A stretch of DNA of 64,000 bases from [Leptolyngbya] sp. PCC 7376 (GTDB lineage: Bacteria; Cyanobacteriota; Cyanobacteriia; Cyanobacteriales; MRBY01). Below, one piece after another: positions 22,590 to 41,129 of this stretch. Position 1 is the first letter of the stretch, and every line of letters begins with the position of its first letter. A program made the translations under genes and the position numbers. The notes beneath the pieces were generated by a model. That model made no database searches. It saw nothing but the letters and a program-made list of their open reading frames with translations, and was not told the DNA's origin. Location: assembly GCF_000316605.1 (NCBI RefSeq), contig NC_019683.1:2588036-2652035 (forward strand), written 5' to 3'.

Positions 22590-25500
22590 CTACCAAGGAC
22601 TACCAATCAACGTAAACGCTGACCAATAGTAAGGATGAGCAAGGGAATTAGATGTTGGAGCAGTGAAATTACCCGATAGCTCTATCGAATAAGGAGAACG
22701 AGTACCGCCCCGTAGCTGATTGCCATCAATCCTCACATCACCACGAATAAGCGCGATTTGGGCCTGTCGTAGCGCTTCAGCTTTAGTACGAATATTAGGG
22801 TCGCGCAGATTTTGATAAAACTCACTCATCAGCGCCATTGTGCCCACATCACTCACCTCCCAGAGGCTGGCCACAGCAGAACGTACCCCTGCCTGAATTG
22901 CCAGTCCACCAAAACCCAGCTCTGCCTCCGGATTTCCCAAAGCTGTTTGACAAGCACTCAGCACCAACAGCTCCACAGGCGGCTCTCGAAACCATTGCAA
23001 TTGCTTCATTTCACTAATTGCCAATTGCTCTTCACCCCAAAGTTGAATATAGGAGTTCTGGAGATTACCGCCTTGAAAACTGGCATGAGTAGCCAGATGA
23101 ATAATGCCGGGATTAATCTCATCGCGAGCAGCAAGCAAATTCTCTTCCGTAAACTCTTCATTTAGAAAATAACGAGAATTATCAAATTGCTGCGTAATCA
23201 GCTCTAATTCTGTTGGCACAGCAGGCAAATCATTCAGCTCAGAGAAACTAGATGCCCCCATCGCCAACATCTCTCGGTCATGCAGGGGGCGATAGCTGGT
23301 ATCTGTCAAACTCAGATTAGGGGTGATACTCAGACTATATTTTTCGATGAGATATTGCTCTCCATCATATAAAGCAGCCCAAGGCACACTCCGTAAATCT
23401 CGTCCTAAGGAAATCAATAAATTACTGATCTCTTCCTCTCGCAATGTTTCTTCAATCGGCTCAAACACTTGTTGATGAATGCTTTCTAAGGCGCGATCTA
23501 GACGTCGCCGAAAAATTTGATTAGGCGTTATCGCAACTCTGAGGAGTTCACGTTCGAGCTGTTTGAGTTGTCTGCGAGTGATGGGAAGCGTTTTCACCAC
23601 AATTTCATCGTTAGCAGTCGTGATAATCACCTCAAGGGGATCTTCGCCATTTGTTTGCCCTGGAATTTGACCTAACCAAGGTTTGAGCGTATCTATTTTG
23701 TGATTATTTTTAGTGCGACTAAGCTGTACACTTTGTGGCTCATTATCTGACGCCAAATTGTTACTTATCGGACGAAAGCGTAAAGAAAGATAAGCAGTTT
23801 TTGTGTCTGTTTGTGCATCAAGATTCCCGAGGAGACTTTGTGATTGTTCTGGAGTGAAAGGAGACGGCAAATTTTGTCCCAAATAATCACCATATTCTGC
23901 AGCTTGTTCGACTTCTGCAGTCAGAAATGTGTCTCCATTTGTAACAATGGCATCTGGCTTATTTTGTCCACCAACCTCTGGTGTGGTTCCTCCGATCTCA
24001 GAGTCTTCATTATCGACTCCATCAGAACCTTCTTCTGGATTATCGGCAGTGATACTACTGTCATCTATCCCTTCGGCGATCACCTCCGAACTGTCTACAG
24101 TATCAATGCCTTCAGAGCCTTCTCCAAAAATGCCAGTATCTTCTTCGATGATAAAATCGGAGTCTTCGAAAAATGAATTAAGAAATGGGTCTAAAAATAG
24201 ATCAATAAAAGGATCAGTGAAAGTTTCACCTTCACTTACTAAAGTGACATCATCTGTATTGTTGAGCGTAAACACGACGATACCAGTATCCGCAAATACG
24301 AAAACATCAAAAGCTCCAACAATCCCGTTCGCACTGGCAGGAAAAGCAGCTTCACCAAAAATATCAGTGACGGTGAAAAAATCGATAGGATTAGTGCTGG
24401 CTCCAGTAACAGGGGCAAGGAAATCAACATCGATTCCTTCTAATGAATTACCAAAAATGGCCTCTTCGGCAAAAACAATTAACTCTTGAGAAAACGCTGT
24501 ATTGGTGAGTGCGGTCTGATTATCGCCTGCAAGGATAAAGAGTTCAGTCCCCTGAAATTCCACTGCTCCTAAGTCAACTATCCCAACTTGGCGATCGCCA
24601 CCTCGCTGCTCAAAAGAACTCGAAACAAAAGAATCATCACCAACATCAAAGGCAGGACTACTGGGGAGCAATAAATGTGTTTGTAGAGGAGTTGTGCCAG
24701 TATTGGGGTCACCAGTTTCAGAGCCACCATAGTCTCCCAACGGAGCAAGTAGCGGATCTACATTCAGTACTCCAGCGCCTGCAACACTACCATCTTGTAC
24801 AAGATTAAATCCAAAGACAGTCGGCGTTGCTCCACTCCAATCTCCCCCAATGCTATTGGTAATAATACTATTTGTAAGATTGGCTGTGCCTCCTCCTGCT
24901 CTGCGTACTCCTCCACCTCCAGCAGGTTGTGTAGAGTTACCAGAGATAGTGGAATTATTGATGTTTACTATTCCACTGAGATCGTAAATTCCCCCTCCAG
25001 AAGTCGTAGCAGTATTACCAGAGATAGTGGAATTATTGATGTTTACTGTTCCAACGTTGTCAATACCTCCACCTGAACCTGAAGAAGCAGAATTAGAAAA
25101 AATACTAGAGTTATTAATAGTTAGTGAACCAAAATTAGAAGCTCCTCCACCAGCAGAAGCGTCATTATTAGAGATATTAGAATCATTAACATCTATTATT
25201 CCTGTTCCAGCATTATAAATTCCTCCTCCGAAGAAACTAGATGTATTACCAGAGATAGTGGAACTATTAATATTTACTGTTCCATCATTACTAATTCCTC
25301 CACCTAAATTAGAGGCAGAATTATTCTCAATAGTGGAATTATTAATATTTACTGTTCCCAAGCTATTTTGAATACCTCCTCCATTAAGGGAAGCCATATT
25401 GCCAGAAACAGTAGAACTATTGATATTTACCGTTGCAATATTAGTGTAAATGCCAGCACCAGTACTTGCTGTATTACCAGAAATAATAGAGTTATTAATG

Positions 25501-27380
25501 TTTACTATTCCTGTTCCAGCGGTAAAAATCCCACCACCATTGAATGCAGAACCATTCCGAATTGTTATGTCTTCAATCGTGGCAGTAGGTGCAAGAATAT
25601 TAAAAATTCGGCTGGAACCATTGCCATCAACCGCAAAAAATTGTCCTGTTCCATCTAAGACCAAATTATCCGTTGTCCAGGCGATTTCTCCTGTGGTTAG
25701 CACAACATTCCCTGAGATTGTAGGGATAATTAAATCTCCAGCTACGGCCGCAGAAAATGCCTCACGTAAAGAATCAGGGCCATTATCATTTAGATTTTGA
25801 ACGAGGATCGTCGCTAATCTTCCTTCCCAAGTGGCAAGAGTTTCTAGGGTGAAAGGGTTACTCGCTTCGATATCGCCAGTGCTATATTCCAGATCCCAAT
25901 TTCCATCAAATTCAGCACTACCAGTGACATCTAAAGAGGCAGCAACGTCTGTCTCAGTTAGCTCTGCCAACTGAGTGAGTAGCGCTTCGCCATCCATCCC
26001 CAAAGCGGTAAAACAACTATAGAGTAACAAATCTGCGCCATTCCCCAAAACCGATCGCCACTGTTGTAGTTGAGCTTGATAGGCTTCTAGGGTTGCACCA
26101 TCAACTAAGTCACTACCGAGCCAAAAATAACCTTCATTACCTTCTGCAACGATATTGATCGCATCGAGAGTTTCACCCGTTGCAGCAAATTCTAAGAGAG
26201 CATTGGTAACGGCATCTAAACCAGCTTCTTGTTTCAAAACGATGGTTGCAATGGTTCCCGATTCACCACCGAAAAGTAGTTGGTCAGGATTATCAGCCCG
26301 CTGATCAATAAATGTATAACCAAGCGAATCTTCCAAATTATCTCGGAAACGCACAACGGTTAAACCGCCACGACTGGATTCACCTGCTTCAATTAGAGAA
26401 AAATCAGTGGGAGTCACACGCCCAGTCGCCATCAATTGCACGGTATCGGCTTGAACTGTCCCGGCAATGCCAACATCACCAGCATTAAAAGCAATATTTT
26501 CTCCATTTTGTTTGAGAGAAACTTCTCCAGTCTCACCAACTGAAACTGTTTCACTAGAACCTGTCAGATATTGCGGTAGATCGGTTGTGGTGAAGACTTG
26601 CAGATCATTAGGGAGAAGCGTTCCGCCAATAGGTGCAGCATCGAGAGCTAGGGACAGTAAATTACCGGGTTGGGATATTTTGATTTGTCGTTGTTCTGGG
26701 ATGGCAGTCAAACTGATATTGCCATTGGGTGCAGACAAAGTCCCCAGATTGAGTACGCTACTGCCCACCAACCATAGTGACTCATTAGCTGGCACTGCGA
26801 GATTCCCTTGATTGAGAATCATGCCTGTCGCATCGTCAAACACAAAACTGGTGGGGTTTCCGTTCAGGGCAGCATAGTTATTAGTACCAAAACTCTGGAG
26901 AAAGTCTTCGCCAAAGCCAATTCTTGTGGACGTTGTTGCAGTGAAACTACCGCCAATATCAAGCTGAGCATTAGCGCCAAAAATCAGGCCAGCAGGATTG
27001 ACGAGAAATAAGTTGGCATCGCTTTCATTGACCCGTAGTAAACCATCAATAAAAGAGGGATTGCCACCACTGATTCTGGAAAGAATATTTTGAATATTAG
27101 GGTCGGCAAAGAAAGTCGCGCTTTGGCTCGGAGATAAATTAAAGTCGGAAAAATTATGGAAAAGATTTGCGGTATCACCGGATAGGCTACCGCCCAGAAT
27201 CTCAAAGTCTGAGCCAGTTTGGTTGACAATGGTACCTGTGCCATCCCCTGCTGGGGTAATTTGGGCGATCGCCTGTTGCTGGGGCTCCAGAAAAACGAAG
27301 GGCAACGTTGGAATAGCAAGCAGAAAAAAAGAAATATTGGAGCGAAACAAAACGAGCACCTCGGTCTTAGCCCCTAACAC
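22590..27380 (-). CDS. Exported haemagglutination-domain / DUF4347 / beta-helix / CHAT protease
   Basis: 1596 residues from a GTG start. An N-terminal hydrophobic signal (FFLLAIPTLPFVFL, ending near AIAQ) leads into a two-partner-secretion (filamentous-haemagglutinin N-terminal) domain: GTGTIVNQTGSDFEILGGSLSG, LFHNFSDFNL, ILSRISGGNPSFIDG, LFLVNPAGLIFG. Residues about 365-510 match DUF4347 (GYFWLGSDL, LLLYSCFTALGMDG). Residues about 560-900 are a parallel beta-helix with repeated VNINNSTISGN turns. After an acidic linker, the C-terminal 350 residues form a CHAT peptidase: His1432 in HLATHASF and Cys1477 in VLSACQTALGN, then a C-terminal YYWSAFTLIGSPW. This implies a secreted or surface caspase-like protease. 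No TpsB transporter lies in the window. Confidence 0.88.
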   Translation of the reverse strand: MLGAKTEVLVLFRSNISFFLLAIPTLPFVFLEPQQQAIAQITPAGDGTGTIVNQTGSDFEILGGSLSGDTANLFHNFSDFNLSPSQSATFFADPNIQNILSRISGGNPSFIDGLLRVNESDANLFLVNPAGLIFGANAQLDIGGSFTATTSTRIGFGEDFLQSFGTNNYAALNGNPTSFVFDDATGMILNQGNLAVPANESLWLVGSSVLNLGTLSAPNGNISLTAIPEQRQIKISQPGNLLSLALDAAPIGGTLLPNDLQVFTTTDLPQYLTGSSETVSVGETGEVSLKQNGENIAFNAGDVGIAGTVQADTVQLMATGRVTPTDFSLIEAGESSRGGLTVVRFRDNLEDSLGYTFIDQRADNPDQLLFGGESGTIATIVLKQEAGLDAVTNALLEFAATGETLDAINIVAEGNEGYFWLGSDLVDGATLEAYQAQLQQWRSVLGNGADLLLYSCFTALGMDGEALLTQLAELTETDVAASLDVTGSAEFDGNWDLEYSTGDIEASNPFTLETLATWEGRLATILVQNLNDNGPDSLREAFSAAVAGDLIIPTISGNVVLTTGEIAWTTDNLVLDGTGQFFAVDGNGSSRIFNILAPTATIEDITIRNGSAFNGGGIFTAGTGIVNINNSIISGNTASTGAGIYTNIATVNINSSTVSGNMASLNGGGIQNSLGTVNINNSTIENNSASNLGGGISNDGTVNINSSTISGNTSSFFGGGIYNAGTGIIDVNDSNISNNDASAGGGASNFGSLTINNSSIFSNSASSGSGGGIDNVGTVNINNSTISGNTATTSGGGIYDLSGIVNINNSTISGNSTQPAGGGGVRRAGGGTANLTNSIITNSIGGDWSGATPTVFGFNLVQDGSVAGAGVLNVDPLLAPLGDYGGSETGDPNTGTTPLQTHLLLPSSPAFDVGDDSFVSSSFEQRGGDRQVGIVDLGAVEFQGTELFILAGDNQTALTNTAFSQELIVFAEEAIFGNSLEGIDVDFLAPVTGASTNPIDFFTVTDIFGEAAFPASANGIVGAFDVFVFADTGIVVFTLNNTDDVTLVSEGETFTDPFIDLFLDPFLNSFFEDSDFIIEEDTGIFGEGSEGIDTVDSSEVIAEGIDDSSITADNPEEGSDGVDNEDSEIGGTTPEVGGQNKPDAIVTNGDTFLTAEVEQAAEYGDYLGQNLPSPFTPEQSQSLLGNLDAQTDTKTAYLSLRFRPISNNLASDNEPQSVQLSRTKNNHKIDTLKPWLGQIPGQTNGEDPLEVIITTANDEIVVKTLPITRRQLKQLERELLRVAITPNQIFRRRLDRALESIHQQVFEPIEETLREEEISNLLISLGRDLRSVPWAALYDGEQYLIEKYSLSITPNLSLTDTSYRPLHDREMLAMGASSFSELNDLPAVPTELELITQQFDNSRYFLNEEFTEENLLAARDEINPGIIHLATHASFQGGNLQNSYIQLWGEEQLAISEMKQLQWFREPPVELLVLSACQTALGNPEAELGFGGLAIQAGVRSAVASLWEVSDVGTMALMSEFYQNLRDPNIRTKAEALRQAQIALIRGDVRIDGNQLRGGTRSPYSIELSGNFTAPTSNSLAHPYYWSAFTLIGSPW
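24940..25540 (-). repeat. Imperfect tandem repeats coding for beta-helix coils
   Basis: About nine imperfect copies of a roughly 60-bp unit containing GTTAATATTAATAATTCC and ATCTCTGGTAATAC-like blocks (minus strand), each encoding one V-N-I-N-N-S-T-I-S-G-N coil of the beta-helix in the CHAT protein. Unit spacing varies, so this is protein-level repetition and not a CRISPR. Confidence 0.75.
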
Positions 27381-27581: not shown

Positions 27582-29534
27582 CTAGATCAACTCTGCATCC
27601 GCAATCATTTCAACCAAAGCTGGCCCTTTATATTCCAAGGCTCGTTGCATCGCATCATCAAGCTCCTCTTTTTTTGTCACCCGAATACCCAGGCCTCCAC
27701 AAATTTCAGCATATTTCGAGAAATCAGGATTATGCAGTGATGTCTGCCAAACGTCCCATTCTCCAGCTCGTTGCTCCTTACTAATCTTCCCTAATTGCGA
27801 GTTATTCACCAAGAAATGAGTGATATTCATGTCATATTTCACCGCAGTGGTAAATTCTGCCAAATATTGACCAAAACCACCATCTCCGGATACCGAGACA
27901 ATTGGCCGTTCATGCCCAGCTGCCGCCCATGCCCCCATCGCCGCCGGGAAACTAAAACCAATAGAACCGAGATAGCCTGACATGAGAACAGATTGGGCTT
28001 CACATTCAAAGTAACGACCAAAAGAATAGGTGTTGTTGCCCACATCCACCGAAATCACAGCATTAGCTGGAATTTGGCGGGTCATCGCGGCAAAAATAGC
28101 AGCAGAACCTAAACCTTGGCCACGATCATCTGCTTCTCGACGAATTTTTTCCTCGCGCCAAATTGCCCAACGATCTGCTATTTCCTCACGCCGATTTTCG
28201 GTATTTACTTGCCCTGTTAAAGCTGTTTTTAATTGTTCGACGACAATACTGATCTCACCCCAGACTGGCACTTCTACCGGATGGAATTTACCGAGGGCAA
28301 GAGGATCAAAATCTACTTGAATAATTGGCTTTTTCGCAGAAATTCCGGTGTGATTAGAGAATGATGCACCAAATACCAACAGCAAATCCGACTCATTCAT
28401 AAACCAACTGGCAATGGGTGTACCACTACGTCCTAAGACACCGCAGCCCAAAGGATGGCGATCGCTAATTTGTCCTTTTGCTTTAAAGGTCGTAAGAATT
28501 GGTGCTCCCAATAGTTCAGCCAATTCGATAATGGCAGGCATATTAAACCGAGATCCATGACCCACAATAATCACTGGGCGACGGGATTGCTTTAGACGGG
28601 CGATCGCCTTTTGTAGAGCATCAGGTGGTGGCGCAATCTGTAACGGTGTAATGCGCCCAGTCGGACTAGAAGCTGGCACATCAACAGCAGCTTGTACCTG
28701 AACTTCATCAGGGAAAATCAAATGAGATACATCACGCTGTAAAAGTGCATTTTTTACCGCAAGGGTCATCAACTCTGCATGTTTGCTATGGCTTAAAACT
28801 GTTTGGCTCCAAGCTGCCACCCCACTAAAAGCTGCACCCAGATCACATTCCTGAAAATTGCCTGTCCCCAATACCTGAGAATTCACTTGTCCTGTCAAAG
28901 CTAAGATCGGTGAACGATCCACCTTGGCATCCCACATCCCAGTTAAAAGATTTGTTGCTCCCGGCCCGGCGATCGTCAGGCAAGCTGCAGGTCTTCCCGT
29001 TAATTTGCCATAGGCCGCTGCCGCAAAAGCCGCTGCCCCTTCATGACGAATACCAAAGAAGGTAATATTCCCTTGCTCTTCTTGACGCCGCAAAGCATCT
29101 GCCAAACCAAGATTAGAATGGCCCACCATGCCAAAAACATGGGTAACTCCCCAGTTCACCATCGTTTCAGCCATGACATCGCTTACTGTTCTGGTATGAG
29201 GGTCTTCCACAGGCAAGCCCACATAAACGCCATCCTCTCGCACCTCTACCGGGAATGTTTCCAGTGCATCATCGTCATCGAAAGCACCGGGAGACTGTCC
29301 AGTGAGAGGGCAATAATCCCAGCCATGCCAAGGACAGCGCAACAAACCATTCTCAATCGAACCTTCCCCTAAAGGCCCACCCTGGTGCGGACAGCGATTA
29401 TCCAAGGCACCATATTGACCATCGTAATGGGTTAGAGCGAGACCTTTATGTCCGGCAATCACCGTTTTGACACGACCCTCCGGCAATTCGTCTGGTGCTA
29501 AAACTTTGAACCATTGAGTTGAAGTATTTGCCAT
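27582..29534 (-). CDS. Rieske 2Fe-2S domain fused to a ThDP-dependent (acetolactate synthase/pyruvate oxidase-like) enzyme
   Basis: 650 residues. An N-terminal Rieske domain (residues 1-110) has Cys48-x-His50 and Cys67-x2-His70 (RCPHQGGPLGEG and LRCPWHGWDY). The rest is a full three-domain ThDP enzyme: the pyrimidine-binding domain with catalytic Glu in FGIRHEGAAAFAAAAYGKLTG and GPGATNLLTG, a central domain (RPVIIVGHGS), and the pyrophosphate-binding motif SGDGGFGQYLAEF...VNN. Related enzymes decarboxylate 2-keto acids. Fusion to a Rieske centre is unusual and suggests that electrons from the ThDP intermediate are passed to or from the cluster; the substrate is unknown. It lies 97 bp downstream of the Rieske-glutamate-synthase-like gene, on the same strand. 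Confidence 0.85.
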   Translation of the reverse strand: MANTSTQWFKVLAPDELPEGRVKTVIAGHKGLALTHYDGQYGALDNRCPHQGGPLGEGSIENGLLRCPWHGWDYCPLTGQSPGAFDDDDALETFPVEVREDGVYVGLPVEDPHTRTVSDVMAETMVNWGVTHVFGMVGHSNLGLADALRRQEEQGNITFFGIRHEGAAAFAAAAYGKLTGRPAACLTIAGPGATNLLTGMWDAKVDRSPILALTGQVNSQVLGTGNFQECDLGAAFSGVAAWSQTVLSHSKHAELMTLAVKNALLQRDVSHLIFPDEVQVQAAVDVPASSPTGRITPLQIAPPPDALQKAIARLKQSRRPVIIVGHGSRFNMPAIIELAELLGAPILTTFKAKGQISDRHPLGCGVLGRSGTPIASWFMNESDLLLVFGASFSNHTGISAKKPIIQVDFDPLALGKFHPVEVPVWGEISIVVEQLKTALTGQVNTENRREEIADRWAIWREEKIRREADDRGQGLGSAAIFAAMTRQIPANAVISVDVGNNTYSFGRYFECEAQSVLMSGYLGSIGFSFPAAMGAWAAAGHERPIVSVSGDGGFGQYLAEFTTAVKYDMNITHFLVNNSQLGKISKEQRAGEWDVWQTSLHNPDFSKYAEICGGLGIRVTKKEELDDAMQRALEYKGPALVEMIADAELI

Positions 29535-29631
29535 GATGGAATTCCTTTAATGAATGGATCGAGTGGCTCTAAATATTGGGTTAAATCTAAAATGACGGCT
29601 CCAGCCAAAGTCTTATTCTTTTCAATCAGTT

Positions 29632-31245
29632 TTAAAGAGGGGTGACACCGGCATAATCTACGCCTGTGAGATGGGCCATATCTCGATGCCAAGTGGTCAA
29701 ATCATCAGCGCAAAACTGATTAAAGTGAGTATGTCCGCAGGCTCGTGCAAGCACCTGCATCAACTCCGTAGAGGCACGGAAAAAACGATTTAGTCTTTCG
29801 GCTGCATCATCAATAATTAAGCGGCGACGCAAATGTTCTTTTTGGGTGGCAATACCCACCGGGCAATTATTCGTATGGCAAGCGCGCATCCCGAGACAAC
29901 CGATCGCCTGAATTGCCGCATTAGAAACGGCTACCCCATCAGCACCGAGAGCCAAAGCTTTCGCGAAATCAGCAGGCGTTCGTAACCCGCCCGTAATAAT
30001 TAAAGTCACATCCTTAGCACCGCGACTATCTAAATATTTTCTCGCTCTAGCCAGGGCCGGAATGGTGGGTACAGAAATATTATTGCGGAAGAGCAACGGT
30101 GCAGCGCCCGTCCCACCACCGCGACCATCCAAAATAATGTAATCCACACCAATGCGTAATGATGCTTCAATATCCTGTTCAATATGCTGGGCGGAAAGCT
30201 TCACACCGATAGGAATACCGCCCGTTTTTTCCCGTACAGTTTTGGCAAAGTTACGAAAGTCATCAACGGACTCCCAGTCTGGAAAGCGTGGGGGAGAAAT
30301 GGCAGATTGACCTTCTTCTAAACCTCGCACCTCAGCAATTTTACCTTTAACCTTGTGGCCGGGGAGATGGCCACCTGTGCCTGTTTTTGCGCCCTGACCA
30401 CATTTGAAGTGGAAGGCTTGCACTTGCAGGAGCTTATCCATGGAGAAACCAAACCGGGCAGAAGCGAGTTCATAAAAATAGCGGCTATTAGCAGATTGCT
30501 CTTCGGGTAACATGCCGCCTTCACCGGAACAAATGCCTGTGCCTGCCAGTTCAGAGCCTTTCGCTAAGGCAACCTTTGCTTCTTCAGATAATGCGCCAAA
30601 ACTCATGTCTGACACGAAAATTGGCATACTCAGTTTTAAGGGTTTCTTGGCATTGGGGCCAATCACCAATTCTGTGCCGACTTCTGCATCATCGAGCAAG
30701 GGTAAACGGGCTAATTGGGCTGTAACAAATTGCAGATCATCCCATTTTGGGAGCTGTGGGGCGGGCACTCCCATGGCAGAAACGGGGCCATGGTGTCCAG
30801 TTTTTGAAAGTCCGTGGGTGGCCAGAGCATGAATATAGTGGGTGCTTGGTTCATCGACAGTGCCGTGAATATCAGCGTAGGTTCCTTGGTAGGCATCTCG
30901 GTTATAAGGCTGGGGATGTTTGGTGCGCCAAGCAATTATTTCGTCGGCATCGACATACACATCGTCGTCTTCGACCCAGGCATTAAATTTGTCGAGAATT
31001 TCGCTGTCATTGTAAGAACTAACGCCTGTATCCATGCGGTAATCCCATTGGTGCAGCCCACAAATGATGTTGTCGCCTTCGATGGAGCCATCAGCCATCA
31101 AAGCTCCCCGATGTTTGCATCGGCCATAGAGCACTGAGAGTTTTTCATCCCAGCGGATAATCACAAGATCAACGTTTTCGACTAATGCGGCAACGGGCTG
31201 GCGATCGCCGATCTCACTCCAGGTGGCAATTTTGACTTTTTTCAT
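29632..31245 (-). CDS. Rieske domain fused to FMN-binding glutamate-synthase-like protein
   Basis: 537 residues. Residues 1-100 form a Rieske domain with Cys43-x-His45 (RCKHRGALM) and Cys62-x2-His65 (IICGLHQWDY). The rest is the GltB-type FMN barrel: PIFVSDMSFGALSEEAKVALAKGS, GTGICSGEGGMLPEE, QGAKTGTGGHLPGHKV, IGVKLSAQHIEQD, and GRGGGTGAAPLLFRNNISVPTIPALARA. A cysteine-containing stretch near the C-terminus (AIQAIGCLGMRACHTNNCPVGIATQ) supplies the ligands for the 3Fe-4S cluster of this family. The glutaminase domain is absent, so ammonia or a non-glutamate substrate is likely. Two iron-sulfur centres on one chain imply electron transfer. It appears co-transcribed with the ThDP-Rieske gene downstream. 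Confidence 0.87.
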   Translation of the reverse strand: MKKVKIATWSEIGDRQPVAALVENVDLVIIRWDEKLSVLYGRCKHRGALMADGSIEGDNIICGLHQWDYRMDTGVSSYNDSEILDKFNAWVEDDDVYVDADEIIAWRTKHPQPYNRDAYQGTYADIHGTVDEPSTHYIHALATHGLSKTGHHGPVSAMGVPAPQLPKWDDLQFVTAQLARLPLLDDAEVGTELVIGPNAKKPLKLSMPIFVSDMSFGALSEEAKVALAKGSELAGTGICSGEGGMLPEEQSANSRYFYELASARFGFSMDKLLQVQAFHFKCGQGAKTGTGGHLPGHKVKGKIAEVRGLEEGQSAISPPRFPDWESVDDFRNFAKTVREKTGGIPIGVKLSAQHIEQDIEASLRIGVDYIILDGRGGGTGAAPLLFRNNISVPTIPALARARKYLDSRGAKDVTLIITGGLRTPADFAKALALGADGVAVSNAAIQAIGCLGMRACHTNNCPVGIATQKEHLRRRLIIDDAAERLNRFFRASTELMQVLARACGHTHFNQFCADDLTTWHRDMAHLTGVDYAGVTPL

Positions 31246-31304: not shown

Positions 31305-32036
31305 TTAACTCGATAGGATGAGTCCGGCATACAGGATAGTGCCGCCGAGAAAGGAGAAAAAACAACTCTGCTGTTCGTCGGGCAATTCTCGTTTCAAAAT
31401 ATTGAGGATGATACTTCCGGCTAAAAATGACCACACCAGGGACACTGTTACTTCACTGAGATGAAAGGCTTGTCCAGCGATCGCCCCAACCATAATCGCT
31501 CCGGTCAATATCCACCGTCCTTGCTTGTCGTAGGGCATCGAATGGTGTTCCCGTAAACTGCGATCCACAATAAAAAAGTGCAGGGCGATCGCCACAAAAA
31601 ACAAAATGCACTGCAATAAACTATGCTCACCGATGTCCTGGAGCAAATAACCCACAATGATGTTTAGTACTGAGAAAAAGGCGATATGAATCCAAAAAGT
31701 AATAGTGTCAGTACTATCAGAATTGTGATTTTCACGGTTGAACTTTCGCGAATTTAATGCCCAAATATCCAACCCATAAAAAATCAAAAGACCAACCAGT
31801 GCAATGATATAAATATGATTTTCCAGGTAGGCCATCAGGGGCACAGCAGAATGTTCTAATTCCTCTTGGGCATGGCTGAGTTCAGGGAAAATCTCTAGGA
31901 AAACATATCCAATCGATACGCCTCCGGCAAACGACAGCCAACGGTGTTCGGGAATAAATGCAAAAATATTTCGCTTGGAAACAAAAGCATGAATCAAGGC
32001 TAAACCGACAGCCAAAATCAGACCCGGTCCTTCCAT
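31305..32036 (-). CDS. ZIP-like integral membrane protein
   Basis: 243 residues with about eight hydrophobic segments. The helix GGVSIGYVFLEIFPELSHAQEE and the late segment SFLAGSIILNILKRELPDEQQ resemble metal-site helices of ZIP transporters (HxxxE-type), and ALHFFIVDRSLREHH is another polar helix. This points to a divergent ZIP-family divalent-metal transporter in the cytoplasmic membrane, but the canonical HNxxD motif is not fully preserved, so transport is uncertain. It lies 60 bp upstream of the two Rieske-fusion genes on the same strand, and its metal might be iron for those enzymes; that is inference. Confidence 0.65.
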   Translation of the reverse strand: MEGPGLILAVGLALIHAFVSKRNIFAFIPEHRWLSFAGGVSIGYVFLEIFPELSHAQEELEHSAVPLMAYLENHIYIIALVGLLIFYGLDIWALNSRKFNRENHNSDSTDTITFWIHIAFFSVLNIIVGYLLQDIGEHSLLQCILFFVAIALHFFIVDRSLREHHSMPYDKQGRWILTGAIMVGAIAGQAFHLSEVTVSLVWSFLAGSIILNILKRELPDEQQSCFFSFLGGTILYAGLILSS

Positions 32037-34332: not shown

Positions 34333-34487
34333 AGAATTTACTCAATCACTCTTTCGTTAAATCTGTTGTCTCAGTCGCTTTGTAGGCTCTGGGGCAATTT
34401 TTGTTTACAGCGCGTAAAAAACAGGAGAGTTTCAAGTAAGTAATGCTATAGCAAAATGGAGTGAGTCGTTTCCTTGGAAGTCTCGCT

Positions 34488-34907
34488 ATGACAATTCACT
34501 GTCCCCAATGTAATGCTCAAGACATCATCAAAAGTGGATTCGCTAAAAATCGTCAACGATTTAAGTGTAAGCAGTGCAATTATCAATTTACAAGCTTTTC
34601 TAAAGAGCGGGGCAAGCCTCTCTGGATGAAATTAGAAGCTGTATTGATGTATATGAGTGGTATGTCCATGAATGCGACAGCCAAGATTCTCGGTGTATCA
34701 GCTCAATCAGTGCTCAATTGGGTAAGAGATTTCGGTGAAGCCAATTATGAAAAGCCCACTCCTGAGTCTGCTGTCGTGGTGGAGCTAGATGAGCTATGGC
34801 ATTTTATCCAAGAGAAAAAAACAAACTTTGGGTCTGGAAAGCATATGACCGTAATACTGGGCGACTCATTGACTGGGAATTGGGAAGTCGTGATAGTCGA
34901 ACTTTAG
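34488..34907 (+). CDS. IS1-family transposase, upstream frame (InsA-like)
   Basis: 139 residues. A zinc ribbon CPQCNAQDIIKSGFAKNRQRFKCKQC (Cys5, Cys8, Cys28, Cys31) is followed by a helix-turn-helix (MSMNATAKILGVSAQSVLNWVR), the InsA pattern. The frame continues past an A7 run (34815-34821), after which its residues no longer match the family, while the -1 frame does. This is the classical IS1 -1 frameshift arrangement. The start at 34488 is chosen because the family N-terminus begins with the zinc ribbon. Confidence 0.85.
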   Translation: MTIHCPQCNAQDIIKSGFAKNRQRFKCKQCNYQFTSFSKERGKPLWMKLEAVLMYMSGMSMNATAKILGVSAQSVLNWVRDFGEANYEKPTPESAVVVELDELWHFIQEKKTNFGSGKHMTVILGDSLTGNWEVVIVEL

Positions 34908-35212
34908 GTCATTTACTAGAGCGGTTATCGCAATGGCAAATCACTGTCTATTGCACCGATAATTGGAAACCCTATCAACAGCTATTAGAGAATCACCCAG
35001 ATGCTTTTCATGTCATTAGCAAGAAAGAGACAATAGCAATTGAGAGAAACAACTCAGACAATCGCCATTGGTTTGCTCGGTTTCATCGCAGGACGAAGGT
35101 CGTCTCTAAATCAAAACACATGGTGGACTTGAGCATGGCACTGTTTGCGAAATTTAGAGTGAATGGAAGTATTGAGCTACTGCGCAATTGGCGTTTAACA
35201 TTACTCTCTTGA
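34796..35212 (+). CDS. IS1-family transposase, downstream frame (InsB-like, by -1 frameshift)
   Basis: 138 residues in the -1 frame. The catalytic part follows the A7 slippery run: KNKLWVWKAYDRNTGRLIDWELGSRDS, VYCTDNWKPY (second Asp), and the late HWFARFHRRTKVVSKS motif, the IS1 DDE-type core. The nominal ATG at its 5' end is inside the upstream frame and is probably not used; the active enzyme is the fusion made by frameshifting. Confidence 0.85.
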   Translation: MAFYPREKNKLWVWKAYDRNTGRLIDWELGSRDSRTLGHLLERLSQWQITVYCTDNWKPYQQLLENHPDAFHVISKKETIAIERNNSDNRHWFARFHRRTKVVSKSKHMVDLSMALFAKFRVNGSIELLRNWRLTLLS

Positions 35213-35444: not shown

Positions 35445-36212
35445 TTAGAGCAGTTTATAAGTCTGTGGATCAGCTTTGAGAACGTAAGCATCCCCGTAGC
35501 GCATCACATCACCCGTAATTTCAATCGGATCTGCGACTAAATCCAATACTTCATCGTTTACAGCCTTACCTTCTAGATCCGACAGCATAAAATACAGCGG
35601 CAAACCGTCCTCATTTTGCGATAAAAACACAGACGGTACACCACCAGAAATACAGCGAATCGCGCAGGAGCGGTGGGTTTTTGTGCGACCAGGTTTCATA
35701 ATGCCGGGATAACATTTACCATCCATAATTTCTCCTCGCAAAGAGAATTGCCCCATAGAGATCCCCATCTCCAATTCCTGTGGTGCAGTTTCTGGAGGGT
35801 CGATGGGCTCTGCCGAGAAAGTCGCTAAGACAGTCAAGCTATTGCGGTGTACTGGTAACCCTCTCAGCTCCACCCATTGGCCTGCATTTTCCATGACTTT
35901 AGCTGATGGCGAAGTCTTGCCTGGCCCGGACAGCAAATAAACCGAATAAGGACTCTGATCGCCCACATCGCCGGGACGAGGCACCATCAAATGGGGTGAA
36001 GGATCGCTCATTAACAACCCAACAAAAGTTTGCTGCCCGGCAAAACGACCGGGATTTACCTGCTCGGAATGGATAGACGGCAAGAGCAATGCTAAGCCGA
36101 TGTAGCCAATCACCAGTGATGGAATCAGTATTAGTAAAAAGCGGCGTATCTTACGGGGGATTTTGGCATAGCCACGATAAAATTCATCGTTGTCAGAATC
36201 ATGTAAAGCCAT
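35445..36212 (-). CDS. Membrane-anchored protein with Cys-rich conserved domain, unknown function
   Basis: 255 residues. One membrane helix at about residues 25-46 (FLLILIPSLVIGYIGLALLL), then an extracytoplasmic domain. A conserved segment (residues 160-195) reads GEIMDGKCYPGIMKPG...HRSCAIRCISGG, with three cysteines that could bind a metal or cluster. No function is known to me, although the same Cys motif occurs in proteins encoded near Rieske and cytochrome genes in other bacteria (established as co-occurrence only in my memory, not checked). Its start codon overlaps the stop of the haem-Rieske gene (TAATG), so the two are translationally coupled. Confidence 0.75.
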   Translation of the reverse strand: MALHDSDNDEFYRGYAKIPRKIRRFLLILIPSLVIGYIGLALLLPSIHSEQVNPGRFAGQQTFVGLLMSDPSPHLMVPRPGDVGDQSPYSVYLLSGPGKTSPSAKVMENAGQWVELRGLPVHRNSLTVLATFSAEPIDPPETAPQELEMGISMGQFSLRGEIMDGKCYPGIMKPGRTKTHRSCAIRCISGGVPSVFLSQNEDGLPLYFMLSDLEGKAVNDEVLDLVADPIEITGDVMRYGDAYVLKADPQTYKLL

Positions 36213-37285
36213 TATGAATCAAACTCCTCTGTGAAATGGGCAGGTTCAACCGGAGTGCCGGGTCGGTTCGGGATTGATGCAACGAAAATTTGAGTGCCTT
36301 CGACCTTCACATTGAATGTCGGAACTTTCTCAGTGAAGGGTGGCGGAGAAGAACCGTTGTCTGGATAGTATTGATACGCATGCCAAGGACAGGTAACGCA
36401 ACCATCGATTATTTTGCCTTCGCCAAGGGGGCCATTCTGGTGTTGGCAGACATTAGAAATAGCGGAGATTTTACCGTCGTATTTAAAGATAGCCACTCGC
36501 TCACCAGCAATCACAACAATTTTGGCGCGATTTTCAGGAATTTCATCGACAGTACAAGCGGCAACATAGCCTTCGGCATCGGCTTGAAGTGTGTGCTTAG
36601 CTTTACCAAAAGGCCAACTCCCATCAGTCTTAGCTTCCTTGAGTCCGGCGATGAGATGAAGTCCTACCACAGTGACAAAACCAACGCCGACTAAGGCGGT
36701 CATTAATGGGTGACGATTTGTTTCTAGTGCACCCAGGATTACGTGACTGACAAGGAGACCATAGGCGACATAAACGCCCATGTGTAAAGCTTTCCAAATT
36801 GGAGGAGTCAAATTAACCAACCAGAAGTCATGGCTCGTAACGGCCATAAAGAGGAATATGACTAAGGCGATCGCCCCTAAGCTCTCGAAGGGAAAGCGAA
36901 TAAAAGAGGTGTAGTTTGTATTACTGACAAACAGACTGACGATCGGCTTCAGATTCCCGAAGTCGTGATACCACCCTAATGTTTCCTTGGCATGGAGCAC
37001 ACCGAGGGCAAACATGGTAACGCCCATATGGCGGCGATTGTAGAGTAGTGGAAGAAACTTGGGGAACAGTCGGCAAAGGGGACCAATGGCCAAAATAATG
37101 TGGAGCAGGATAAATCCGGCAGAGCCATAATCGCGAATCCAAATCCCCTTCAGATCTAAACTCGAACCACCGCTCTTGGCGATCGCCTCAAACACAAATA
37201 AATAAGCAATGACTGACGCCCACAAAATGACGTCATAGATAATGACCTGTCGATTCCATTGAATAGATTTATAGGCAACACTCAT
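36212..37285 (-). CDS. Ferric-reductase-like haem membrane protein with C-terminal Rieske domain
   Basis: 357 residues. The N-terminal 220 residues contain about six membrane helices with histidines in pairs (His62, His98, His168 and His181 are candidates) typical of the ferric-reductase-like transmembrane / cytochrome-b fold. A soluble C-terminal domain (residues 240-345) is Rieske type: Cys280-x-His282 (VCQHQNGPLGEG) and Cys299-x2-His302 (VTCPWHAYQY). The arrangement would carry electrons between a membrane quinone or haem and a soluble 2Fe-2S centre. It is the central gene of a four-gene operon (38128 down to 35445). MsrQ is a fold relative but has no Rieske domain. Confidence 0.85.
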   Translation of the reverse strand: MSVAYKSIQWNRQVIIYDVILWASVIAYLFVFEAIAKSGGSSLDLKGIWIRDYGSAGFILLHIILAIGPLCRLFPKFLPLLYNRRHMGVTMFALGVLHAKETLGWYHDFGNLKPIVSLFVSNTNYTSFIRFPFESLGAIALVIFLFMAVTSHDFWLVNLTPPIWKALHMGVYVAYGLLVSHVILGALETNRHPLMTALVGVGFVTVVGLHLIAGLKEAKTDGSWPFGKAKHTLQADAEGYVAACTVDEIPENRAKIVVIAGERVAIFKYDGKISAISNVCQHQNGPLGEGKIIDGCVTCPWHAYQYYPDNGSSPPPFTEKVPTFNVKVEGTQIFVASIPNRPGTPVEPAHFTEEFDS

Positions 37286-37337
37286 AGAAAACTCCGATGG
37301 AAAATTCCGATGGAAAACAAAACCAACTTCACTGGGA

Positions 37338-37844
37338 TTAGAGTTGTGTCAAAGATGCTGAAATCGGGAATGCAGCTTGTATAGCTTGTCTACCTTGACT
37401 GTAGATCAACAAATATCCGTCTTTCCCCACGATTGCATCTGGCACACTAAATTGCCGTTGAGCTGAACCGGATAATCGGCCAAGTAGTAGGGCGCTATCA
37501 CCAATTTCTTCTGGTGCTTCCGCAGCGCCATCCCAGTAAATCAATAGATCTGGTTGTCTCAGATCCCACCGAGGTTTGAGGGTGAGAATGACTTTGTCAT
37601 CTTCTTGGGTATAGGTTATGGCGTTAAATTGACTCGATTTACCGAGGTCTTCAGAAGCTATCTTTTCACCTAGCTCACTATCTGCAACCAAGGCATAGCC
37701 ATCTTGTTCAAAGAGGATCTGCGCCGACTCATCCGATGGTAGATATTGGGGACGAAATATAAAGCCAAATAATAGGATCAAAGGCAGGGCGATCGCCAAG
37801 ATCGAGCTAGCGGCCAAATGGGTCTGTCGTCGGGAAAGGAGCAT
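37338..37844 (-). CDS. Hypothetical single-pass membrane protein of the haem-Rieske operon
   Basis: 168 residues. One N-terminal membrane helix (residues 10-30, LAASSILAIALPLILLFGFIF) is followed by an extracytoplasmic beta-rich domain (QDDKVILTLKPRWDLRQPDLLIYWDGAAEAPEEIGDSALLLGRLSG ... DGYLLIYSQGRQAI). No cysteines are present in the soluble part. I do not recognise a family. It is 52 bp upstream of the haem-Rieske gene and 2 bp downstream of the two-helix protein, so all four are probably one transcript. Confidence 0.72.
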   Translation of the reverse strand: MLLSRRQTHLAASSILAIALPLILLFGFIFRPQYLPSDESAQILFEQDGYALVADSELGEKIASEDLGKSSQFNAITYTQEDDKVILTLKPRWDLRQPDLLIYWDGAAEAPEEIGDSALLLGRLSGSAQRQFSVPDAIVGKDGYLLIYSQGRQAIQAAFPISASLTQL

Positions 37845-37846
37845 CT

Positions 37847-38128
37847 TTAACCTCCTGAAACAGGTGCTTGTTTCGCTGCAATGCGATGGGCATTTTTCTC
37901 AGTGGGATGTTGTTTACCCTTTAGTAGTCGAATGGCAAACAAAGGCCAAAACAAAACAACACCCGGAATAATGATCAATCGAAATCCGATCGCCCATCCT
38001 GTAGCCGCTGGGTCGACCCGTTTGATCAGAAATGTGACAAAGGGAATCGAAAAAACTAGCCCAGCGATCACGTAGGCGGTTATTAATTGCAGCGTCCATT
38101 CAACAATGCTGATAGCAAAGTTATTCAT
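37847..38128 (-). CDS. Small two-helix membrane protein of the haem-Rieske operon
   Basis: 93 residues with two membrane helices (TLQLITAYVIAGLVFSIPFVTFLI and WAIGFRLIIIPGVVLFWPLFAIRLL). A helix-turn-helix of this shape suggests a membrane subunit of the complex made with the haem-Rieske protein. No cofactor residue is obvious. It is the first gene of the operon; the promoter should lie in 38129-38250. Confidence 0.75.
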   Translation of the reverse strand: MNNFAISIVEWTLQLITAYVIAGLVFSIPFVTFLIKRVDPAATGWAIGFRLIIIPGVVLFWPLFAIRLLKGKQHPTEKNAHRIAAKQAPVSGG

Positions 38129-38599: not shown

Positions 38600-39205
38600 C
38601 TAATCAAGTTTTAGAGAAGGTTTCTTAGGCTGATGACAGTAGGCAATGAGACCACAAAGCAAGTTGACACAAAAATTGGCAGGACTGCGGTGGCGAGAAT
38701 GTTCAATCTGAGAAATTTTCTTCAGTTGGTCAATGACTGTCTCAATTAAAGCTCGCTTACGAGCCAGAACTTTGTCACGCCAAAGCATCAAGTGATTCTT
38801 CATATTGCGACGAGGCTTAGCTAGAAGCCTCACATCATATTCTTCTTGCAAATACTGTGCCAGAGCTTGAGAGACGTAACTTTTATCTGCAAAGACTTTT
38901 CTCGATAACTCTTTCAAAAGCTCCACGGCTGGTTTTCTGTCATCAGTGTTACCAGGCGTGACTTTCACATTGAGTAATTCTCCACAGTCATTGATAACCA
39001 GATGTAGTTTGAAGCCAAAGAACCAACCCACAGAGGTTTTACCTCGAGCGGCATGACCTTCAAAAACGTGATGTTGAGATATACGACGGTTATGACAGAC
39101 ATTGATGCCACTAGCATCAATGAAACTAATGCCTGTGCATTGGCCATAACAGTGGCGCCAATAGATGCACAGCGGTACTAATGTTAAGGCATCCATTCCA
39201 CAAAG
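38600..39205 (-). pseudogene. IS982-family transposase, 5'-truncated
   Basis: The remaining 198 residues cover the DDE-type core: GISFIDASGINVCHNRRIS, GWFFGFKLHLVINDCGELLNV, VFADKSYVS and the C-terminal [42 protein letters not shown]...[10 protein letters not shown], all typical of IS982. About 90 N-terminal residues are missing. A further relic of the family (FVEWM in the neighbouring frame) just before the apparent start suggests a one-base shift there. It is inactive in this state. Confidence 0.85.
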
Positions 39206-40122: not shown

Positions 40123-41129
40123 TATAGCAATTTCTAGTCGAGTGAGGTGCAATAGCAGCAATGTGTAAACCAGCATCGAATATCATCAAGGGTAATCTTG
40201 GAAAAAGCTACCTCAATTGCCTTGTCTAGAGCTAGATAAGTTCTTGCCCCGATACTTTTCAAGGTACTTTTCAACTTTGACCAGCAATTTTCAATGGGTG
40301 AAAAATCTGGAGAATAGGGAGGAAGGTAAATCAACTTAGCTCCCACGGCCTCAATCATTGTGCGTACTGACTCTCCTAAATGAATCGAACAGTTATCCAT
40401 CACCACACATGCTCCCGCCCATAAGTTTGGTATTAACTTCTGGCTGATGAATGCTTCAAAGGTTAATCCATCCGTACTCCCCAGCAGATGATAATTAGCG
40501 ACCATTCCCTTGAAGCCTAATGCTCCAATCAAAGAAACATTCTTGCCTCGTTTACTGGATTTCGGACTATAAGCTCGTTTCCCTTTCTCAGAACGTGCCC
40601 TCAGTCTTGTCATGGCTAAGTTCACGCCCGATTCATCGATAAAAATCAAGTTTTTCGCTAGAGTCGCTTGCATTTTCTGCCAAAAATCATATCTGGCTTG
40701 TTGCACTCGTTTTGTCGCCTTAAGGTCTGGATAGAATGTTTTTTTTGAGGCTATATCCCATTCTTCTTAAGGTGCGATGCATGGTGCTATTGGCCACACG
40801 GAGACCAGTGCGTTTCTCCATCTCATCACATAGTTCCGCTAGCGTCGCATCGTTTTTCTTGGTGAGCAACTGGCGCAATATTGTTTGATTGCTCTTCGTT
40901 TAATTTGGGAGGTGTTTGTTGGCTTCGTTTTTTCGGAGCAATCGACCCTGTCAGTCGTTTTTGGTCGAGGAGCTTTTGTACAAAACTTTTCGCCACTCCA
41001 AATTGTCGGGCAAGACTACTTTGACTCACACCACCCCTTTCGTAGGCATCCACTATTTCTGTCTTAAGTCTAATGAGTAGGCTTTCGGCAAGATGCTACT
41101 TTCTTCCTCACCAGTCAACTCACCTATAC
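40123..41129. mobile_element. IS630-family insertion sequence, decayed
   Basis: About 1 kb between TA-containing ends: AGTATAG... at the left and ...CTATACT at the right, with similar GAGTGAGG / CCTCACC motifs further inside. Insertion at TA is typical of IS630. It carries one minus-strand transposase pseudogene. Confidence 0.7.
40134..41091 (-). pseudogene. IS630-family transposase with several frameshifts
   Basis: An N-terminal helix-turn-helix (ERGGVSQSSLARQFGVAKSFVQKLL) and a C-terminal DDE core (FIDESGVNLAM, VVMDNCSIH, LPPYSPDFSPIENCWSKLK) are recognisable. They are separated by frame changes at about 40898 and at an A8 run (40739-40746), and the first residues (LPKAYSLDLRQK) are in yet another frame. 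At least three shifts make it a pseudogene, although its catalytic residues survive. Confidence 0.85.

Follow-up and report, generated by a model that had tools for sequence, protein, structure and literature searches.

A stretch of 64,000 nucleotides from Leptolyngbya sp. PCC 7376 (contig NC_019683.1, positions 2,588,036 to 2,652,035), here called the window, carries four neighbouring genes on the minus strand that form a deeply conserved unit, and their products very probably work as one membrane redox unit. We denote the genes g4 (37847–38128, 93 residues), g3 (37338–37844, 168 residues), g2 (36212–37285, 357 residues) and g1 (35445–36212, 255 residues), g4 being the first gene of the unit. 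All are in the list of open reading frames (ORFs); conservation and a profile match upstream of g2 further support g4, predicted structures support g3 and g1, and Pfam matches, invariant residues and topology support g2. The gaps are 2 bp between g4 and g3 and 52 bp between g3 and g2, and g2 and g1 share one base (TAATG). An earlier note, made from the letters alone, had the four ORFs, their adjacency and this spacing right. Its two-helix protein is g4, in which two hydrophobic segments are seen; its ferric-reductase-like protein with a Rieske domain is g2, which passes both Pfam cut-offs; and its anchored Cys-domain protein is g1, with an N-terminal membrane helix and the motif GKCYPG...CAIRC at residues 165–187. 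The four-gene unit of that note stands; it missed the Rieske-tagged enzymes at 27582–31245, the membrane topology and the stand-alone Cys-domain proteins described below. The window genome is cyanobacterial and consists of a single contig of 5,125,950 bases.

A scan of genome contigs with g2 gave 175 relatives, and the locus counts given here rest on the best 80 of these 175 (loci carry L numbers and genomes G numbers). These 80 were picked by g2 similarity alone, and all six frames were searched with profiles of the four proteins, those for g1, g3 and g4 having been built from matches in the same 80 loci and seeded by the window proteins. All four genes are present in 74 of the 80 loci, and every one of these 74 has them in the order g4-g3-g2-g1 on a single strand, which rejects a chance neighbourhood; no opposite-strand match occurs in the 80. 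Downstream of g2, g1 is found in 78 of 80 loci, and the two exceptions (L025 and L092) end at most 131 bp from the g2 match. Upstream, g3 is found in 79 of 80, the exception (L088) beginning inside g2, and g4 in 76 of 80; it is missing in L051 and L083, which both have room for it, in L055, where 623 bp are available, and in L088, which leaves no space. Sorted by record title, the loci comprise 27 acidobacterial, 25 cyanobacterial, 15 verrucomicrobial, 3 KSB1, 3 planctomycete and 2 Rhodothermia/Balneola entries, with single loci titled Chromatiaceae, Nitrospirales, Calditrichia, Gemmatimonadetes or unassigned; most are metagenome-assembled genomes, and single bins may be misassigned. The earlier note had staked its proposal on co-occurrence elsewhere, and by their titles the loci that share the four-gene order come from about ten phyla. 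Moreover, one uninterrupted frame encodes both g2 and g1 in L046, titled Nitrospirales, and in L128, from Acidobacteriota. A single g4-g3 frame in L067 contains a likely internal start and was not counted as a fusion.

The linkage holds equally well when genomes are searched for g1. Every genome with a full-length g1 has g2 beside it: 24 of 24 holders among 247 Acidobacteriota genomes searched, 5 of 5 among 240 Verrucomicrobiota and 5 of 5 among 386 Cyanobacteria, the fifth of these being the window genome. In Acidobacteriota the g1 profile matches 59 genomes, of which the 24 scoring at least 138.6 bits are counted as full-length, the other 35 having only the Cys domain or a partial profile match. 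One cyanobacterial g1 copy (G217) carries an in-frame TGA. The distribution of the module is patchy: g1 is absent from all five congeneric genomes and present in four of the 60 nearest genomes, the window genome counted. Five Rhizobium plasmid records carry g2 (43–45% identity) and g1 (29–32% identity). In the two of these records that were examined, genes of 71 and 53/54 residues lie upstream, with scores of 52.5 and 47.6 bits for the g4 profile and weak ones of 16.5 and 17.2 bits for the g3 profile, and the module genes other than g2 are annotated as hypothetical. Rhizobium leguminosarum WSM1689 and Rhizobium sp. WSM4643 have all four on plasmids, so that direct testing is feasible in this genus.

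The centre of the unit is g2, which combines a Ferric_reduct domain (PF01794; 43.1 bits against a cut-off of 28) with a Rieske [2Fe-2S] domain (PF00355; 57.8 against 20.3) at residues 240–338 (36272–36568, minus strand). Four histidines, H86, H98, H168 and H181, are invariant among homologues, as are two further ones, H107 and H152; the Rieske ligands C280, H282, C299 and H302 (CxH...CxxH) are invariant in 30 of 30 rows. The haem-histidine pattern given for NOX2 in the accessible part of PMC3591440 matches g2, with H86/H168 as the inner and H98/H181 as the outer pair, in the third and fifth transmembrane helices. According to the same text, most short bacterial forms of the ferric reductase domain (FRD) keep two or three of the four haem histidines, and an FRD-Rieske architecture is already in print there as model M4. 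The protein has six hydrophobic segments. Basic residues number 11.6 per sequence on the N-terminal side (3.07+3.10+1.27+4.12) against 3.0 on the other (1.90+0.70+0.43), and because they concentrate on the N-terminal side, both ends are predicted to lie inside, with the Rieske domain on the cytosolic side; the last inner stretch also holds 4.39 acidic residues, which limits the weight of this count for topology. The best NCBIfam model with a membrane part is MsrQ (35.8 bits over residues 9–182, cut-off 130), and the Rieske domain is nearest to the Rieske-type ferredoxins of aromatic dioxygenases among PDB sequences and NCBIfam models. Pfam finds only Rieske-type domains after the FRD of g2 and none that binds flavin adenine dinucleotide (FAD) or NADPH, and in none of the four proteins does it find a cytochrome b family at E≤1.

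No Pfam or NCBIfam model matches g1, g3 or g4 at E≤1, which rules out a known family there for these three subunits. The motif of g1 contains a candidate metal site between K166 and C187 (35652–35717, minus strand) in which C167, M172, H180, C183 and C187 are each conserved in at least 0.99 of 79 homologues, the strict C/M/H/C/C set being kept in 75 of the 79. An AlphaFold2 model of g1 (mean predicted local distance difference test score, pLDDT, of 89.2; predicted template modelling score of 0.78) shows a long helix at residues 20–51 followed by two beta-barrel domains, the second with the Cys motif. In the model, H180, C183 and C187 lie in one helix (178–189), and C167 and M172 just N-terminal to it. 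The fold has no PDB match at E≤1e-3 (best Foldseek E 1.4e-3); the first outer domain (54–145), the only part of g1 covered by the comparison with OB-like folds and thus not including the Cys domain, reaches at best Z 7.7 (8b2n_B; root-mean-square deviation (rmsd) 3.1 over 76 residues), with many OB-fold rows, all at Z<8. As a single sequence g1 has no PDB sequence match, and the g1 profile against PDB returns only superoxide reductase, at E=1.6.

The g1 profile further picks up, in Acidobacteriota, small proteins that consist of the second (Cys) domain alone. We fetched 30 such loci (L136–L165), from 29 of the 43 shorter acidobacterial rows and one cyanobacterial row. C-x(8-18)-H-x2-C-x3-C is present in 30 of 30, a partly circular count since the search profile contains the motif, and the Met is not kept; the only family matches, all below cut-off, are to DUF5818, QueF-like and DUF2645 models. 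A CusA-type pump gene is found in 5 of these 30 loci and a c-type cytochrome gene in 10, neighbours that hint at a copper or other metal site.

The two remaining subunits are small. The predicted structure of g3 (mean pLDDT 90.2) consists of a membrane helix and an outer beta-sandwich; because the outer domain falls outside the match in 25 of 79 loci (Acidobacteriota and some others), the helix, with an RR..H motif, is the common part of the protein. For the outer domain there is no fold match at E≤1e-3, and the best hit (Z 7.0, rmsd 3.3, 98 residues) is uninformative. In g4, Y19, G23, D39, F49, W61, R67, E77, H81 and R82 are conserved among 77 homologues.

A second group of proteins probably belongs with the module. 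At 27582–31245 the window encodes a pair of neighbouring soluble enzymes, unusual fusions that carry a Rieske domain at the N-terminus; both are on the minus strand and are probable partners of the module: a thiamine-diphosphate (ThDP) enzyme (27582–29534), recognized from Pfam, NCBIfam, PDB and co-occurrence, and a flavin mononucleotide (FMN) protein with a glutamate synthase domain (29632–31245), recognized from Pfam, its recurrence beside the module and co-occurrence. The nearest PDB relative of the ThDP catalytic part is the pyruvate dehydrogenase [cytochrome] PoxB (226.6 bits, aligned over its length), and the NCBIfam pyruvate oxidase/dehydrogenase model gives 403.9 bits without reaching its cut-off of 742; for the other catalytic part, the closest PDB entries are large chains of glutamate synthase. 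Besides g2, 14 of the 80 loci contain 19 extra Rieske ORFs, against about 2.7 expected from the density in the window genome (13 Rieske matches per 5.13 Mb). Those scanned or classified join a Rieske domain to a ThDP enzyme, to a glutamate synthase domain or to FMN_red; in L044 and L057 the Rieske part alone is visible in the scanned frame. With ORF starts set mechanically, there is a 4-bp overlap between a tagged gene and g4 in L066 and L068, the gap to the module is 1 bp in L043, and tagged genes follow g1 by 11 bp in L060 and 16 bp in L047, all on the same strand. A ThDP enzyme in L068 (5268–7595) bears two tandem Rieske domains. The ThDP gene beside the Rhizobium module was rejected as the same kind of client; it is untagged, acetolactate-synthase-like and 25.5% identical to the window enzyme.

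Co-occurrence across genomes points the same way. The tagged ThDP enzyme is present in 16 of 247 Acidobacteriota genomes (25 matched, and 9 with the catalytic part only were dropped), and 15 of the 16 are among the 24 holders of full-length g1, where 1.6 would be expected (hypergeometric P 5e-17, ignoring relatedness). In 9 of the 15 its gene is far from the module or on a different contig. The tagged glutamate-synthase-type enzyme is present in 11 of the 247 (16 matched, 5 with the catalytic part only dropped), 8 of them with g1 (P 3e-7, likewise ignoring relatedness). Such one-way co-occurrence is expected if the module serves several donors and a tagged enzyme depends on the module. In a tree of Rieske domains each tag class clusters together, with the FMN-reductase tags beside g2; built with FastTree from a domain of about 100 residues, midpoint rooted and sampled from one in four distinct g2 domains, the tree is only a hint.

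Together, these observations suggest a conduit of four subunits that moves electrons across the inner membrane, for which we consider the full route, from tagged donor to the Rieske cluster of g2, its two haems and an outer metal in g1, to have an even chance of being right. The soluble enzymes, a PoxB-like ThDP enzyme, a glutamate-synthase-type FMN enzyme and a flavodoxin-like FMN reductase, would dock through their N-terminal Rieske tags and donate electrons to the Rieske domain of g2, as their neighbourhood and co-occurrence suggest. The g2 cluster, judging from its residues and predicted topology, would accept these electrons at the cytosolic side and pass them on by way of two stacked b-haems, one bound by H86/H168 towards the inside and the other by H98/H181 towards the outside. 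On the outer side, the anchored g1 would take them up at a metal centre formed by C167, H180, C183, C187 and M172, for which copper is a guess, and electrons would go on from there to an acceptor outside. The subunits g3 and g4 may keep the assembly together in the membrane.

Several observations weigh against this route. Of the 80 loci, 66 have no extra Rieske protein, and of the module-bearing genomes 9 of 24 acidobacterial and 4 of 5 cyanobacterial ones have no tagged ThDP enzyme; because so many module genomes and loci do without it, it cannot be the sole donor. Conversely, one of 16 genomes with the tagged ThDP enzyme and 3 of 11 with the glutamate-synthase-type enzyme have no module. The P values above take no account of relatedness among genomes, and the tagged gene of L057, L061, L082 and L113 lies on the strand opposite to the module. 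Copper at g1 is guessed only from the CusA-type genes near the stand-alone proteins, and the recurrent neighbours of the unit described below (acyl-amino-acid lipid genes, ATP-grasp/cysteine dioxygenase genes and a GH63-like glucosidase) are not explained by an electron conduit.

The strongest rival is a quinone-linked dehydrogenase module, because PoxB, to which the tagged ThDP enzyme is closest among solved structures, is a quinone-linked pyruvate dehydrogenase. Electrons would then pass from the tagged enzymes through g2 into the membrane quinone, with the invariant H107 and H152 perhaps lining the quinone site and g1 serving as a structural subunit or copper chaperone that carries no electrons. 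We think this unlikely: g1 is linked as tightly as the other neighbours of g2, is fused to it in two loci and keeps its C/M/H/C/C set almost throughout, and a quinone site on the inner side needs no outer haem.

Less likely still is an outward metal reductase or copper/iron-homeostasis device resembling STEAP or FRE proteins, in which g1 would be the site of Cu(II) or Fe(III) reduction, serving uptake, detoxification or cofactor loading. The FRD superfamily does include metal reductases (PMC3591440, accessible part). The CusA-type pump and c-type cytochrome genes near stand-alone Cys-domain proteins would fit such a role, yet the 80 module loci contain a CusA-type match only once, and weakly (L076, 199 bits). 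A protein that reads as ZIP-like accompanies the module in the window (31305–32036) and in three other loci, but no metal transporter is a constant neighbour in the 80. It is highly improbable that the unit is a periplasmic repair system like MsrPQ, with g1 carrying electrons to an unlinked repair enzyme; MsrQ is the best membrane-part match for g2, but the score is far below cut-off, g2 has four haem histidines rather than the two or three of short forms as well as an added Rieske domain, and no MsrP was noticed among recurrent neighbours, although no search was aimed at it. A NOX-type complex is ruled out by the lack of FAD and NADPH domains in g2, and a bc1-type complex by the lack of a cytochrome b family match.

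Compared with known systems, g2 shares with the FRD superfamily (NOX, FRE, STEAP, YedZ/MsrQ) a six-helix haem domain with histidine pairs in helices 3 and 5 but has no FAD/NADPH domain. For the FRD-Rieske proteins it describes, the accessible part of PMC3591440 mentions neither obligatory company of g4, g3 and g1 nor the Cys-domain subunit nor tagged enzymes. MsrPQ (YedYZ) likewise has a haem-b membrane protein that passes electrons to an outer-side partner, whereas g2 falls under the MsrQ model threshold, has an extra Rieske domain and has a different outer partner. The tagged ThDP enzyme aligns with PoxB, the pyruvate:quinone oxidoreductase, over the full length of its catalytic part but differs in its N-terminal tag and its NCBIfam score below cut-off. 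The ferredoxins closest to the g2 Rieske domain have here a counterpart fused to a membrane haem protein, and the tags are fused to oxidoreductases. Cytochromes bc1 and b6f also combine haem b with a Rieske protein, but g2 has no cytochrome b match and its Rieske domain is predicted on the inner side. Unlike CuA and the known copper electron carriers, g1 matches no known family in Pfam, NCBIfam or PDB sequences.

The earlier note knew of no named complex with this composition, and none was found in the literature searched. Within that coverage, outside which lie subscription papers and preprints, PMC3591440 is the one work that attaches a Rieske domain to an FRD protein, and none was found that deals with the four-gene unit, with the Cys-domain subunit or with the Rieske-tagged enzymes; the accessible passages of PMC5449189 and PMC5676040 add nothing, the only match to Rieske in the latter being an author name. 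We tentatively suggest, as a possibility that may well prove wrong, that the unit represents an unnamed transmembrane redox family whose outer metal centre, set in a small barrel domain and composed of three Cys, one His and one Met, would be new, and into which unrelated cytosolic enzymes plug through an interchangeable N-terminal Rieske domain. If so, several different oxidations would share one membrane exit, and the absence of any family match for three of the four subunits would explain why so widespread a membrane redox unit has no name. Such a unit would link oxidations in the cytosol to the cell exterior in a new way, possibly through a metal centre of a new kind, and would exemplify modular docking of Rieske tag to Rieske acceptor.

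Transposase-like ORFs, identified by reading, lie on both sides of the unit (34461–35212, 38600–39196 and 40134–40706), in keeping with a mobile, patchy island. A polytopic membrane protein of family c29 (31305–32036, minus strand), defined by protein clustering, also accompanies the module in L029, L035 and L036; it has no Pfam match above cut-off, and we take it to be ZIP-like. In L029 the order is g4-g3-g2-g1, the c29 protein, a Rieske-tagged glutamate-synthase-type gene and a Rieske-tagged ThDP gene. The window repeats this gene order, except that a LysR-type gene, a YHS-domain gene and a transposase-like pair are interposed, and so very likely holds an interrupted form of this larger cluster. 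Next to the tagged ThDP gene lies a very long ORF of 1596 residues (22590–27380) that reads as having a haemagglutinin-like start and a CHAT-like end. A promoter scan upstream of g4 on the minus strand gave no promoter-like site, and with 3 sites overall against 6.2 expected it is uninformative.

Other neighbours vary with lineage; the labels EamA, NRDE and GH63 are our presumed assignments. In Verrucomicrobiota, Acidobacteriota, KSB1 and others, the set downstream of g1 comprises OlsB-like and PlsC-like acyltransferase, DinB-like, VTT/ATP-grasp and NRDE-like genes, with the OlsB-like acyltransferase directly 3′ of g1 in L037, L039, L044, L054, L057, L074, L086 and L090. Eight cyanobacterial loci (L017, L019, L020, L022, L023, L026, L027 and L031) have, downstream of g1, glutathione-synthetase-like ATP-grasp and GNAT genes and mostly also cysteine-dioxygenase-like and EamA-like genes. 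In loci from several phyla a GH63-like glucosidase gene is near the unit: L035, L040, L042, L065, L069, L087 and L092, and the Rhizobium glucosidase of this kind (L209, 8517–11138) is 54% identical to the L069 copy.

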